In this document: positions 25,732-51,283 of the stretch, one piece after another
How positions within the stretch are numbered: position 1 is the stretch's first letter
Layout of the letters: every line of letters starts with the position of its first letter
NCBI GenBank assembly: GCA_001898645.1
Contig: MKUQ01000054.1
Coordinates: 1 to 64,000, forward strand
Source: Burkholderiales bacterium 70-64
GTDB taxonomy: Bacteria > Pseudomonadota > Gammaproteobacteria > Burkholderiales > Burkholderiaceae_E
DNA length: 64,000 bases
Direction: 5' to 3'
Notes under the pieces: generated by a model
The model's database searches: none
The model's input: the letters and a program-made list of their open reading frames with translations, nothing else
Told to the model about the DNA's origin: nothing
Translations under genes and position numbers: made by a program

Positions 25732-25760
25732 GAGCCGGATGGTATCGGGTTCACGCGGGA

Positions 25761-25782
25761 CGATCGTAGGGTGAACAGGCCC
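25761..25782 (-). repeat. solo copy of the GGGCCTGTTCACCCTACGATCG terminal repeat
   Basis: Matches the TIR outer 22 nt of the 49801..50065 element; abuts the fahA TAG stop. Confidence 0.8.
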
Positions 25783-27092
25783 TAGTCCAGCGCCGGCAGC
25801 ACCGTGCCGCGGCATTCGCCGAAGCCGATGCGCACGTAGCCGGGCTTCTCGCACCAGCCGCGCAGGATCACCGTGTCGCCGTCCTCCAGGAAGCGGCGCG
25901 TTTCGCCGTTGGCGAGCGCCGCCGGCTGCCTGCCGCCGGCCGTCAGCTCGATCAGCGCGCCGCCCTCGGCCGCGGTCGGCCCCGACTGGGTGCCGCTGCC
26001 GAGCAGGTCTCCCGGATTCAGGTTGCAGCCGCCCACCGCGTGGTGCGCGACCATCTGCGCGATGCTCCAGTAGGCATGCCGGAAGCTGGTGTGCGAGAGG
26101 CGGCACGGGCCGGCCGCGGCGGCGCGCATGGCCTCGCTCTCGAGCCAGGCCTCGAGCTGCACGTCGATCGCGCCGTGCGCGCGATCCTCGGCCGAGTCGA
26201 GATAGGCGAGCGGCTGGGGGTCGCCGGCCGGGCGCGTCCAGGCGAGGCGATACGGTTCGAGCGCCTCCATGGTGACGATCCACGGCGAGACGGTGGTGGC
26301 GAAGTTCTTGGAGAGGAAGGGACCGAGCGGCTGGTACTCCCAGGCCTGGATGTCGCGCGCCGACCAGTCGTTGAGCAGGCACAGCCCGAACACGTGCTGC
26401 CCGGCCTCGGCGATGGGGATGGGGCGGCCGGAGGCATTGCCCGGGCCCACCCAGATGCCCAGCTCGAGCTCGTAGTCGAGCCGCGCACAGGCGGCGAACG
26501 CCGGGGCGGCGGCACCGGGGGACAGGACCTGGCCGTGCGGCCGGTGAAAGCGCTGGCCGCTCACACCGATGGAGGAGACCCGGCCGTGATAGCCGATCGG
26601 GACCCACTTGAAGTTCGGCATCAGCGGGTTGTCGGGGCGGAACAGCCGGCCGATGTTGGTGGCGTGATGGACCGAGGTGTAGAAATCGGTGTAGTCGCCG
26701 ATCTGCGCCGGCACCGTGTACTCGGCCTCGGCCTGGGGGACCAGGCAGCGGGCCAGCGCGCCGGCCTGCGGCGCGCCGGCGCGCAGCAGGCGCGACAGCG
26801 CCAGCCGCAGGGCCGACCAGTGGCGCGGGCCGAGCGCCATCAGCCCGTTCAGCGTCGGGTTGCCGGCCAGCGTCGCCGCGTCGCTCGCGGCGCCCTCGAA
26901 GACGCCGGTGCCGCGCGCGGCGGCGAGGTCGAGCACCTGGTCGCCGATCGCCACGCCGCCGCGCCACGGCTCGCCCGAGCCGTGCCGGCGGAACACGGCG
27001 AGCGGCAGGTTCTGGACGGGGAAGTCGCAACCCGCCGCGTTGGCCGATTCGACCCAGCTGCGCAGGGCGGCGTCGTGGGTTTCGTTGGTCAT
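25782..27092 (-). CDS. fahA: fumarylacetoacetase
   Basis: [55 protein letters not shown]. Confidence 0.94.
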
Positions 27093-38077: not shown

Positions 38078-38310
38078 GAACGTTGAAGGAATCTGCTGCG
38101 CGGTCCGATCTCGCGCCTGTGATGCTCGCCGCACTCCGGTACGGCTGCGCTTCTCGCCGCGACCTCGGACCGCTCGCTGCGATTCCTTCGCACGTTCCGA
38201 GCGCGCGCGGCAATCCGATGCGGCAATTCCCGCACGCGCCGTAGCTCCGCCACGGTTGCGCTTTGCGCCTTGCTTGCACCCCGGCCGGGGGCTCACCCGG
38301 GCTCGATTTC
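38078..38310. repeat. structured palindromic intergenic element after the marR gene
   Basis: Imperfect ~40-bp inverted arms (38078..38119 vs 38157..38197) starting immediately after the MarR stop; apical module and 38240..38310 related to the interior of the 49801..50065 element. Confidence 0.65.
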
Positions 38311-38364
38311 ACTCTGAAAGACTCCTGGGCCAAGTATAGTGGCTGCGATCCCTGGGCACGATTC

Positions 38365-39378
38365 ATGAGCATGGAGCGTCGAAAGCCCGCATCGGACGCG
38401 CAGTGGCTGTTCGCCGACGTCGGCGGCACCAACGTGCGCGTGTGCCGCTGGCAAGGCGATGCCGGTGCGGGTCCCATCGCCCGCTCGCCGGCCGATGCCT
38501 TCGATACGCTGGACGCGGCGCTGCGCGCGCTCGCCGGCGCGCACGCGCTGCTGCCCGACCACTGCGCGCTGGCCGTGGCGGCGCCGGTGCACGATGCGCC
38601 CATGCCGATGACCAATCGCGGCTGGGTCCTCGATGCCGCGGTGCTGCGTCGCGCGCTCGGCCTGCAGGCGCTGCGCGTGGTCAACGACTTCGTCGCGGCG
38701 GCCGCCGGCATCGCCGCGCTCGATGCCGCGGCAACGCAGACCGTGCGCGCGGGCGTGCCGCGACCGGCCAGCCGGCTGCTCCTCGGGCCCGGCACCGGCC
38801 TGGGCGTGGCCGCGGTGCTCGATGCAGGCGGCAGCGCCGAGCGCATCGTGGCCAGCGAGGGCGGTCACATGGGTTTCGGCTACCCCGAGGACGCGCTCGC
38901 TCCGCTGCTCGCGGCGATGCACGCACGATGGGGCCGCCGCCTGTCGTGGGAGCGGCTGCTGAGCGGCGACGGGCTCGCTCGCCTGCACGCGTGGCAGGCC
39001 GGGCTGGCCGCGCCTCTCGAGGCCCGGCAGGTGAGCGCGTGTGCGGCCGCAGGCGACCCTGCGGCGCGGCGCGCCGTGCAATGGTTCTGCCGTCTGCTCG
39101 GAGCGTGCGCCGGCGACTTGTGCCTGGCCTTCGGCGCCGACGGCGGCGTCTGGCTCACCGGCGGCGTGCTCGACGGCCTGGGGCAGGCTTTCGATGCTGG
39201 CGCATTCCTCGAGGCGTTCGACGACAAAGGGCGCTATCGGGCGCGTCAGCACGAAGTGCCGGTGCATCGCGTGCTCGCCACCGACCTGGCGTTCCGCGGC
39301 CTGGCGCGCATCACGCGCACGGCCTGCCGCGCGCCCGGTCTGCTGGTCACGCCGGCGGGCATCGAGGCGCTGCATTAG
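38365..39378 (+). CDS. glk: glucokinase
   Basis: WLFADVGGTNVRVCRW, LLLGPGTGLGVAAVL, ASEGGHMGFGYPEDALAPLL, VWLTGGVLDGL. Confidence 0.9.
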   Translation: MSMERRKPASDAQWLFADVGGTNVRVCRWQGDAGAGPIARSPADAFDTLDAALRALAGAHALLPDHCALAVAAPVHDAPMPMTNRGWVLDAAVLRRALGLQALRVVNDFVAAAAGIAALDAAATQTVRAGVPRPASRLLLGPGTGLGVAAVLDAGGSAERIVASEGGHMGFGYPEDALAPLLAAMHARWGRRLSWERLLSGDGLARLHAWQAGLAAPLEARQVSACAAAGDPAARRAVQWFCRLLGACAGDLCLAFGADGGVWLTGGVLDGLGQAFDAGAFLEAFDDKGRYRARQHEVPVHRVLATDLAFRGLARITRTACRAPGLLVTPAGIEALH

Positions 39379-39407
39379 GGCCTGCTCACCCTGCGATCGA
39401 CCCCGCG
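39378..39407 (+). repeat. solo copy of GGGCCTGYTCACCCTRCGATCGACCCCGCG
   Basis: 28/30 identity to the TIR; the first G is the last base of the glk TAG stop. Confidence 0.8.
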
Positions 39408-39519
39408 CCCGGAGGGGTGGGCGATTTGGTAAAATGACACATTTCCCCGACACCACGGCGTGTGCGGCTTCCCCGAAAAGGGAAGCCCGCCTGCGCACGC
39501 CATGCAAAGGAGATCGTGC

Positions 39520-39978
39520 ATGCAGGAAGCTCTTCGCTCGAATCCCGACAGCGGTGTCCTGGACGCACCCCTGCCGCAGCCGTCCGGCGATTCGACGCGC
39601 GTGTACTTCGCCGGCGACTCGACCCGCGTCGATCGCCAGTATCACGACGCGATCCGCGACCAGGCGCAGCGCTTCATCGCCGGACCTGGCGGCACGCTGA
39701 TCGTGTCCGGCCACGCCAACCCGGTCGACGAGCCGGAGGCGGCGGTGCGGCTCAGCATGGACCGCACGCAGGCGGTGGCCGCGCTGCTCGAGCAGTTCGG
39801 CGTGCAGAGCCACCGCATCGTGCGCGTGAGCCATGGCGCCAACGCGCCGCTCGTCGACGTGTCCGACGAGGCGTCGAGCTGGCTCAACCGCTGCGTCGAG
39901 ATCCGTCCCGGCGCGCTCGCGCCGCGCCAGCCGGTGTGGTCGCAGCGCGGCCGCAAGCCGGCGCGGGGACGTTCGTAG
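39520..39978 (+). CDS. OmpA-like C-terminal domain protein
   Basis: FAGDSTRVDRQYHDAIRDQAQRFIAGPGGTLIVSGHANPVDEPEAAVRLSMDRTQAVAALLEQFGV; no obvious signal peptide. Confidence 0.6.
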   Translation: MQEALRSNPDSGVLDAPLPQPSGDSTRVYFAGDSTRVDRQYHDAIRDQAQRFIAGPGGTLIVSGHANPVDEPEAAVRLSMDRTQAVAALLEQFGVQSHRIVRVSHGANAPLVDVSDEASSWLNRCVEIRPGALAPRQPVWSQRGRKPARGRS

Positions 39979-39990
39979 GGTGAACGGGCC
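39963..39990 (-). repeat. diverged solo TIR copy at OmpA-like stop / uvrD start
   Basis: CGCGGGGACGTTCGTAGGGTGAACGGGCC; contains the TAG stop and the candidate GTG start. Confidence 0.6.
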
Positions 39991-48608: not shown

Positions 48609-49514
48609 GTGAGCATGGCCAGCCCGCGCGCGCTGTTCCTGCTGGCAGTGCTCACCCTGGTCTGGGGAACCAACTTCGCGCTGTTCCCGCTGGCGGTGCG
48701 CGAAGTCTCGGTGTGGACGTTCCGCGCCGTCGCCCTGCCCGCGTCCGGTGCCATCCTGCTCGCCGTGGCGCGGGCGCGCGGCCAGCCGCTGTCCATCGCG
48801 CGCCGGCACTGGCCGACGATGATCGTCTCGGCGCTCGCCTATCTCGCCACCTGGAACATCGCCAGCACCTATTCGGCGGTGCTGATCCCCTCGGGCCAGA
48901 CCGCGGTGCTGGGCTTCACCATGCCCTTGTGGTCGGCGCTCATCTCGTGGGCGGTGCTCGGCGAGCGGCCGGGCGTCCGCATGCTGCTGGCCATCGTGCT
49001 GGGCGCGGCGGCAGTGGCCCTGCTGATGCTGCCCGACTTCGGCGCGTACGCTCACGCGCCTCTCGGCCTGGCGCTCGGGCTGCTGGCCGGCCTGGGCTGG
49101 GCGGTCGGCACGCTGGTGCTGGCGCGCGGCGCCGTGGCCGCGCCCGCCCTGGTGCTGAGCGGCTGGCAACTGATCCTCGGCGGCGTGCCGATCGCGATCG
49201 GGGCGCTGGCATTCGGCGACGGCCGCTGGTTCGTGCCCTCGTGGCAGTCGATCGCCGTGATCGGCTGGATCACGCTGGTGCCGATGGCCATCGGCAACGC
49301 GTGCTGGTTCGCCATCGTCGGCCTGCTGCCGGCCGGCGTGGCCGGGCTCTCCTCGATCATGGTGCCGGTGATCGCGCTGGTGTCGGGCGCCCTCGTCCAC
49401 GGCGAGCCGCTCGGGCCGATCCAGACGGCGGCGATGGCCTGTTGCGCCGCCTCGCTGTGGCTGGCATTGTTCGAGCGTCGGCCGGCCGGCTCGCGGGCCC
49501 GGAGCAAGCCATGA
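48609..49514 (+). CDS. EamA (DMT) family transporter
   Basis: LVWGTNFALFPLAVREVSVWTFRAVALPASG, ten-TM pattern. Confidence 0.88.
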   Translation: MSMASPRALFLLAVLTLVWGTNFALFPLAVREVSVWTFRAVALPASGAILLAVARARGQPLSIARRHWPTMIVSALAYLATWNIASTYSAVLIPSGQTAVLGFTMPLWSALISWAVLGERPGVRMLLAIVLGAAAVALLMLPDFGAYAHAPLGLALGLLAGLGWAVGTLVLARGAVAAPALVLSGWQLILGGVPIAIGALAFGDGRWFVPSWQSIAVIGWITLVPMAIGNACWFAIVGLLPAGVAGLSSIMVPVIALVSGALVHGEPLGPIQTAAMACCAASLWLALFERRPAGSRARSKP

Positions 49515-50242
49515 AACTGAACGGCTCGTGTCATTGTCAGGCGGTGCGGTTCACGGTGGAGTCCGCCTCTCCGTATCCGTTCATGCGTTGCTATTGCTCG
49601 ATCTGCCGCAAGACCGCGGGGGCGGGCGGCTACGCGATCAACCTCGGCGCCGACCGGCGCACGCTGGTCGGCGAGGGCGCCGAGCACCTGTCCGTCTACC
49701 GCGCGAGCCTGGAAGACGGCAGCGAGAGCAGCGGCGAGCGCAACTTCTGCCGCCGTTGCGGCAGCGCGCTGTGGCTCTACGATCCCAACTGGCCGGACCT
49801 GGGCCTGTTCACCCTACGATCGACCCCGCGCCGGGGCCTGGCGAGCCGCCAAACGAGGCGCCGGCGACGCGCGTGGCGGTGCCACGCAAGGAGCCGGCAA
49901 CGAAGTGTGGCGGCTCGCCAGACCCCGGCCCGCAGGGTGAACCCGAAAACAGCACGCACTCGGCGTTGCAAATGCTCGCCGTGGCCCCGCCACGGCTGCG
50001 CTTTGCGCCTTGATTGCGTGCTGTTTTCGGGCTCACGCGGGGTCGATCGTAGGGTGAACAGGCCCAAGCACCCGCACGCCTCGGTCATCGACACGCCGCT
50101 GCCGGTGCCGCCCGAGCGGGTGCACATCATGCTCGGCTCGAAGGCACCATGGGTCGAGCCCGAGGTGCGCCCCGGCGACCGCAGCTTCGATCGGTACCCC
50201 GACGAATCGCTGGCGCAGTGGCACGCCCGCCACGGGCTGTAA
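49511..50242 (+). CDS. GFA-family glutathione-dependent formaldehyde-activating-like protein, interrupted in frame by a repeat element
   Basis: MKLNGSCHCQAVRFTVESASPYPFMRCYCSICRKTAGAG, CRRCGSALWLYDPNWPDL, then ~88 Arg-rich codons, then HPHASVIDTPLPVPPERVHIMLGSKAPWVE. Confidence 0.75.
   Translation: MKLNGSCHCQAVRFTVESASPYPFMRCYCSICRKTAGAGGYAINLGADRRTLVGEGAEHLSVYRASLEDGSESSGERNFCRRCGSALWLYDPNWPDLGLFTLRSTPRRGLASRQTRRRRRAWRCHARSRQRSVAARQTPARRVNPKTARTRRCKCSPWPRHGCALRLDCVLFSGSRGVDRRVNRPKHPHASVIDTPLPVPPERVHIMLGSKAPWVEPEVRPGDRSFDRYPDESLAQWHARHGL
49801..50065. mobile_element. 265-bp MITE-like element with perfect 30-bp TIRs and internal hairpins
   Basis: Left GGGCCTGTTCACCCTACGATCGACCCCGCG (49801..49830), right is its exact reverse complement (50036..50065); inner stems 49832..49851/49908..49927 (19/20) and 49942..49958/50015..50031 (17/17). 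No transposase ORF. Confidence 0.85.
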
Positions 50243-50911: not shown

Positions 50912-51283
50912 CGCGGTCGCGGCAGTCGGCGGGCGGCCGGGCCCAGGGGGGCGCGGCGCTGGGCACGGCGGTCGGTGCTGCGCGCCGGCGCCTCGTTTGG
51001 CGGCTCGCCAGGCCCCGGCGCGGGGTCGATCGTAGGGTGAACAGGCCCAGGTCCGGCCAGTTGGGATCGTAGAGCCACAGCGCGCTGCCGCAACGGCGGC
51101 AGAAGTTGCGCTCGCCGCTGCTCTCGCTGCCGTCTTCCAGGCTCGCGCGGACCGGCATGACGTTGGCACCGAGGCCGTTGCCTGCGCACGCCACCGCGGT
51201 ATCGGCAAAGGCGCCGGCCCCGGGCGGCCCGCGCCTTTGCTCGCGCCAATCGAAGCACGCAAAGTGACCGACGCACGCGAAGT
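50912..51283. repeat. mosaic of repeat modules plus a captured GFA-gene fragment
   Basis: 50912..50983 = exact reverse complement of 62701..62772 (72 bp); 50983..51150 = exact reverse complement of 49699..49866 (168 bp); 51141..51283 matches modules at 62081..62149 and 62350..62421. Confidence 0.85.

Follow-up and report, generated by a model that had tools for sequence, protein, structure and literature searches.

The GFA-Family Gene and Its Insertion

The stretch of DNA analysed here, a window of 64,000 nucleotides, contains at positions 49511-50242 on the forward strand an open reading frame (ORF) of 243 aa that belongs to the GFA (CENP-V/GFA) family. In a domain profile search with this ORF, residues 3-89 match PF04828 with an E value of 3e-15, and the protein carries the CxC, CxCxxC, and CxxC cysteine motifs of the GFA/CENP-V family. 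The gene is read through a 265-bp element located at 49801-50065. Before the element the frame reads CGSALWLYDPNWPDL, ending at 49801, and it continues from 50069 with HPHASVIDT, the frame being unchanged. This agrees with the first-pass annotation of this DNA, according to which no stop codon interrupts the element and the family C-terminus resumes in the same frame.

The element is missing from all eight same-genus orthologues, which are 79-85% identical and 154-155 aa in length. These orthologues have a single codon (Val) at the insertion point where the window has 89 codons, so that the net insertion is 88 codons, or exactly 264 bp, in frame; the earlier expectation that removal of about 264 bp would give a protein of family length is fully in line with this comparison. 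The 88 inserted residues are Arg-rich and are found in no homologue. The metal-binding Cys residues had been placed upstream of the insertion, and this is the case for all seven conserved Cys residues (7, 9, 27, 29, 32, 80, and 83). Distant relatives of the protein in the PDB are 3fac, 8ajq, and 1x6m; with the 88 residues interrupting it, the C-terminal part of the GFA/CENP-V fold is not continuous. Relative to sister species, dN/dS is approximately 0.1-0.3 for both halves of the gene, with no frameshift. These ratios indicate that the GFA gene was constrained until recently and carry no information on the time since insertion.

The left junction of the insertion is present a second time in the window. 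An exact 168-bp inverted copy of 49699-49866, composed of 104 bp of the gene and the left 64-66 bp of the element, lies on the reverse strand at 50983-51150, and these inverted repeats, 1.1 kb apart, bound a 1.45-kb segment. In the genome G009, the interval between the CHRD and AAA neighbours is shorter by approximately 340 bp.

Ends, Copies, and Target of the Element

The element is a two-armed MITE that occurs in multiple copies, with terminal inverted repeats (TIRs) and empty orthologous sites. Its left TIR (49801-49830, forward strand) is an IS5-type end beginning with GGGCCTGTTCACCCTACGATCG, and its right TIR (50036-50065, reverse strand) is a perfect inverted copy of the left one. By sequence comparison, the two match at 31 of 31 nt when the flanking T/A is included (49800-49830 and 50036-50066), 30 nt of which lie within the 265-bp element; the boundaries and the perfect 30-bp repeats reported previously were correct. 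No transposase-sized ORF is present in the element.

Four near-full copies, including that in the window, are found in the source genome, the other three being 98, 94, and 92% identical (contigs C56, C55, and C25), together with three one-arm copies (C60, C28, and C19) and many end fragments. The same-genus genome G004 contains at least 12 complete copies, and more are found in other genomes of the genus and the family, amounting to about 30 complete copies in relatives. Complete family copies number 34, and 16 of them are bordered by TA at both ends, often within CTAG. The window copy has no intact target duplication, its left flank ending in CCT and its right flank starting with AAG, as against the CTA and TAG that are usual in the family.

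The outer 18 bp of the element are also the ends of IS5-family elements on plasmids of Burkholderia gladioli and Cupriavidus, and an IS5-family element with near-identical ends (CTAGGGCGTGTTAACACTA) is present in the same-genus genome G014. Neither DUF4096 nor a match to the G014-type IS5 transposase was found in the source assembly (G000), a draft in 63 contigs, and plasmids contained no full-length match to the element. Judged by its sequence, the element is a non-autonomous MITE with IS5-family ends, and autonomous relatives of it are present in the same genus. The first-pass annotation had described a MITE-like element inserted in frame inside a GFA-family gene, a description that implies further copies elsewhere in the genome. 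Such copies exist, and the description is further upheld by the empty orthologous sites, the ends of IS5 type, and the family's TA/CTAG target.

Remnants of this MITE family also occur elsewhere in the window. Two armless ends (39376-39412 and 39958-39990) lie around a small OmpA-domain ORF (39520-39981, PF00691). The upstream ORF 38263-39378, glucokinase-like by eye, terminates at a stop codon that belongs to the left one, and a UvrD helicase gene (GTG at 39980, PF00580) begins at the right one. Intergenic DNA at 38237-38307 and 25745-25788 contains decayed pieces of the family, derived from the tip and the right end. In addition, four copies in G004 (L113, L117, L118, and L122) have one flank in common (GCGACCATACGA) and differ in the other, as if the MITE were at the end of a larger repeat.

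A Two-Armed Fold

Folding of a single strand of the element, modelled both as DNA and as RNA, gives a stem made of the two TIRs, from which two long arms, A and B, extend. The DNA fold has an energy of -130.8 kcal/mol, compared with a mean of -68.2 for shuffled sequences (z = -17). Arm A (49827-49932) has a stem formed by 49831-49854 and 49905-49928, and carries at its tip (49855-49904) a variant form of the conserved module described below. Arm B (49937-50036) is indicated by the fold and by compensating pairs. Between the arms lies an internal TIR-like direct repeat (49931-49942, forward strand; partner 50048-50059), and the one-arm copies may have arisen via deletion between the TIR and this repeat.

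In an alignment of 25 two-arm copies, changes on both sides were observed in 47 of 110 pairs. Cells with both-side changes number 146, compared with 25 in column shuffles and at most 21 in slid structures. The arm-B stems of L078 and L131, two distant copies, share only 24-36% identity with those of the window copy, whereas the tip shares 85%. Base pairing in the arms is kept, possibly through selection or through palindrome correction by template switching. No Rfam family reaches its gathering score in the window; weak Rfam matches in the element are palindrome matches far under the cut-offs, and a known structured RNA was rejected as a candidate.

A Tip Module Found Across Burkholderiales

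The conserved tip module of arm B (49960-50011, reverse strand) scores 76 bits with the covariance model R1, which was trained on 12 tips, the family of this copy being in the training set. The module is approximately 52 nt long and consists of GGCGCAAASCGCAG, a stem-loop, and GCGAGSATTTGCAACG; its AAC bulge is invariant, and it also has a GCA/GA internal loop. In other genera, the arm-B tip alone is matched, with different flanking stems. A strict tip pattern was present in 7 of 300 Burkholderiales genomes, where a reversed-pattern control gave no hits, and in 0 of 383 other Gammaproteobacteria. The pattern has a lower sensitivity than the covariance model, since the match in G127 is detected with the model only. 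With the covariance model, matches at E <= 1e-5 per genome were obtained in 44 of 200 Burkholderiales genomes and 31 of 108 sampled genera, counts that include the genomes supplying the training tips, which match by construction.

The TIRs around these tips are clearly different sequences. When elements with such other TIRs were compared with the window element, the aligned part was, for most of them, essentially the tip region alone. L239 differs in being a full two-arm relative, at 67%, and in L247 the alignment takes in the tips of both arms. IS630-family elements of Acidovorax and Janthinobacterium have ends that match one of these TIR types, CTAGTGTCCTGAGTCAGA, and two further types have no IS-end matches among plasmids. 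The tip pattern is absent from the autonomous IS5-type and IS630-type elements examined. The tip is shared, that is, among MITEs with unrelated ends.

Integron attC sites have boxes of the form GTTRRRY/RYYYAAC, which the tip motif does not fit, and attC was discarded as a candidate. Searches of the literature with the motif strings gave unrelated matches only, and the part of the literature covered on betaproteobacterial MITEs that have IS5 or IS630 ends contained no account of the tip, which is weak evidence of novelty. The two-armed fold and the conserved tip in MITEs of differing ends are what is new here. It was also observed that G134 has more than 20 identical tip matches, many of them less than 100 bp from contig ends; these MITEs therefore appear to break assemblies.

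Probable Consequences for the Gene and Possible Meaning of the Tip

A newly inserted element of 265 bp with a 2-bp TA duplication amounts to 89 codons, a multiple of three; the net gain of 264 bp in the window results from the target duplication not being intact. Moreover, 29% of dinucleotide shuffles of the element are open in the frame used. The other intragenic copies found contain stops. The copy on contig C56 (L214 1094-2059, G000) splits an RraA-like gene, with PF03737 on both sides in the same frame, and is length-neutral yet has in-frame stops; a copy in G022 interrupts a LysR-like gene, as its name was read by eye from the translation, and contains one stop. Because of the open shuffles and these stops, the open GFA frame is in itself no sign of use.

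AlphaFold was run for an orthologue and for the window protein with the same 13-sequence alignment. The orthologue gave a pLDDT of 74 and a pTM of 0.64, with a strand at 97-100 just past the insertion point. The window protein gave a pLDDT of 48 and a pTM of 0.43, part of this drop in confidence being accounted for by the insert having no alignment of its own. The insert, with a pLDDT of approximately 30, is predicted to be disordered, and the strand after it is not formed.

The most probable reading, to which we assign a probability of roughly 0.7, is that a non-autonomous IS5-type MITE was recently inserted in a conserved GFA-family gene and that the enzyme is most likely impaired or dead. 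The insertion looks recent given the 98% identical sister copy and the perfect TIRs. The MITE would have been brought into the gene by a transposase that recognised its TIRs in trans, and the ORF would have survived because the element is nearly length-neutral and can be read without stops in one forward frame. The enzyme would then be impaired by 88 Arg-rich residues that separate one strand of the GFA fold from the next, and an mRNA with a very stable double hairpin would likewise leave the gene impaired rather than improved. An intact ORF, dN/dS values of approximately 0.1-0.3 in both halves, and the absent target duplication are points against this reading. However, intact halves are compatible with damage, since a recent insertion leaves no time for visible decay.

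The opposite outcome, in which the insert is translated as part of a working 243-aa protein, as has been proposed for the Rickettsia palindromic elements, appears unlikely. The open frame with its net 88 codons and the seven Cys residues upstream would fit such a protein, and junctions unlike those of a plain insertion, the duplication having been lost, leave room for a later adjustment of the frame. However, the frequency of open shuffles, the stops in other intragenic copies, and the predicted disorder with loss of the next strand argue against it, and conservation of the peptide for its own sake is not seen, as changes between copies follow base pairing. The first-pass annotation had offered a disabled gene or an exon-like protein segment as alternatives; the evidence leans to the former, and protein innovation by the insert, though conceivable, is not positively supported. 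An artefact of draft assembly is a very improbable source of either the insertion or the inverted 168-bp copy. A draft in 63 contigs and an exact 168-bp repeat over a strong hairpin 1.1 kb away are typical of places where assembly fails, but the GFA junctions are in frame with conserved coding sequence on both sides, and independent copies of the element occur at other loci and in other genomes. An artefact is plausible for the second junction copy only, whose origin may lie either in a recent duplication by template switching or in faulty assembly.

A further possibility, to which we give somewhat less than even odds, places the emphasis on the element itself: the arms and tip would be under selection as a structured DNA or RNA module, the tip being used by some factor, and the GFA insertion would be incidental. 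The excess of changes on both sides of pairs, the tip that is retained in a distant family member as its stems diverge, and the presence of the module in MITEs with unrelated ends would lead one to think so. However, palindromes can be compensated by template switching or gene conversion between arms with no selection, and the shared tips could reflect recombination between MITEs. More tentatively still, the tip might be a functional hairpin module that non-autonomous elements with unrelated ends, served by unrelated transposases of the IS5 and IS630 types, have acquired separately across Burkholderiales, perhaps because the folded strand is recognised by a host factor that aids movement, replication, or persistence. 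Interruption of a gene is an ordinary event for a MITE. If the proposal for the tip is true, something besides the transposase selects the MITE interior, which is usually taken as filler, and the tip provides a concrete motif for tests of protein binding and mobility.

Comparison With Known Systems

The element closely resembles IS5-family MITEs in being short, lacking a transposase, having IS5-type TIRs and a TA/CTAG target, and occurring in multiple copies with autonomous relatives in the genus. There are also differences, in that the TIRs here are 30 nt long with only the outer 18 nt or so common to IS ends, and the two-arm interior is absent from the IS elements examined.

The Rickettsia palindromic elements and the in-frame MITEs ERIC and QMITE1 (review PMC10969869) are similar in that a palindromic element lies in a gene and the frame stays open. 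In Rickettsia, many such elements lie in frame within many genes and code for a peptide that is conserved. In contrast, there is one open case here, the other intragenic copies found have stops, and no conserved peptide is seen.

Finally, REP/BIME and other bacterial palindromes (PMC2817692, PMC3733652) are likewise hairpins with conserved features in many copies. REPs are 20-40 bp long, are GTAG- or CGTC-tagged, and are tied to tyrosine (RAYT) transposases, whereas the units described here have IS-type TIRs and TA duplications.
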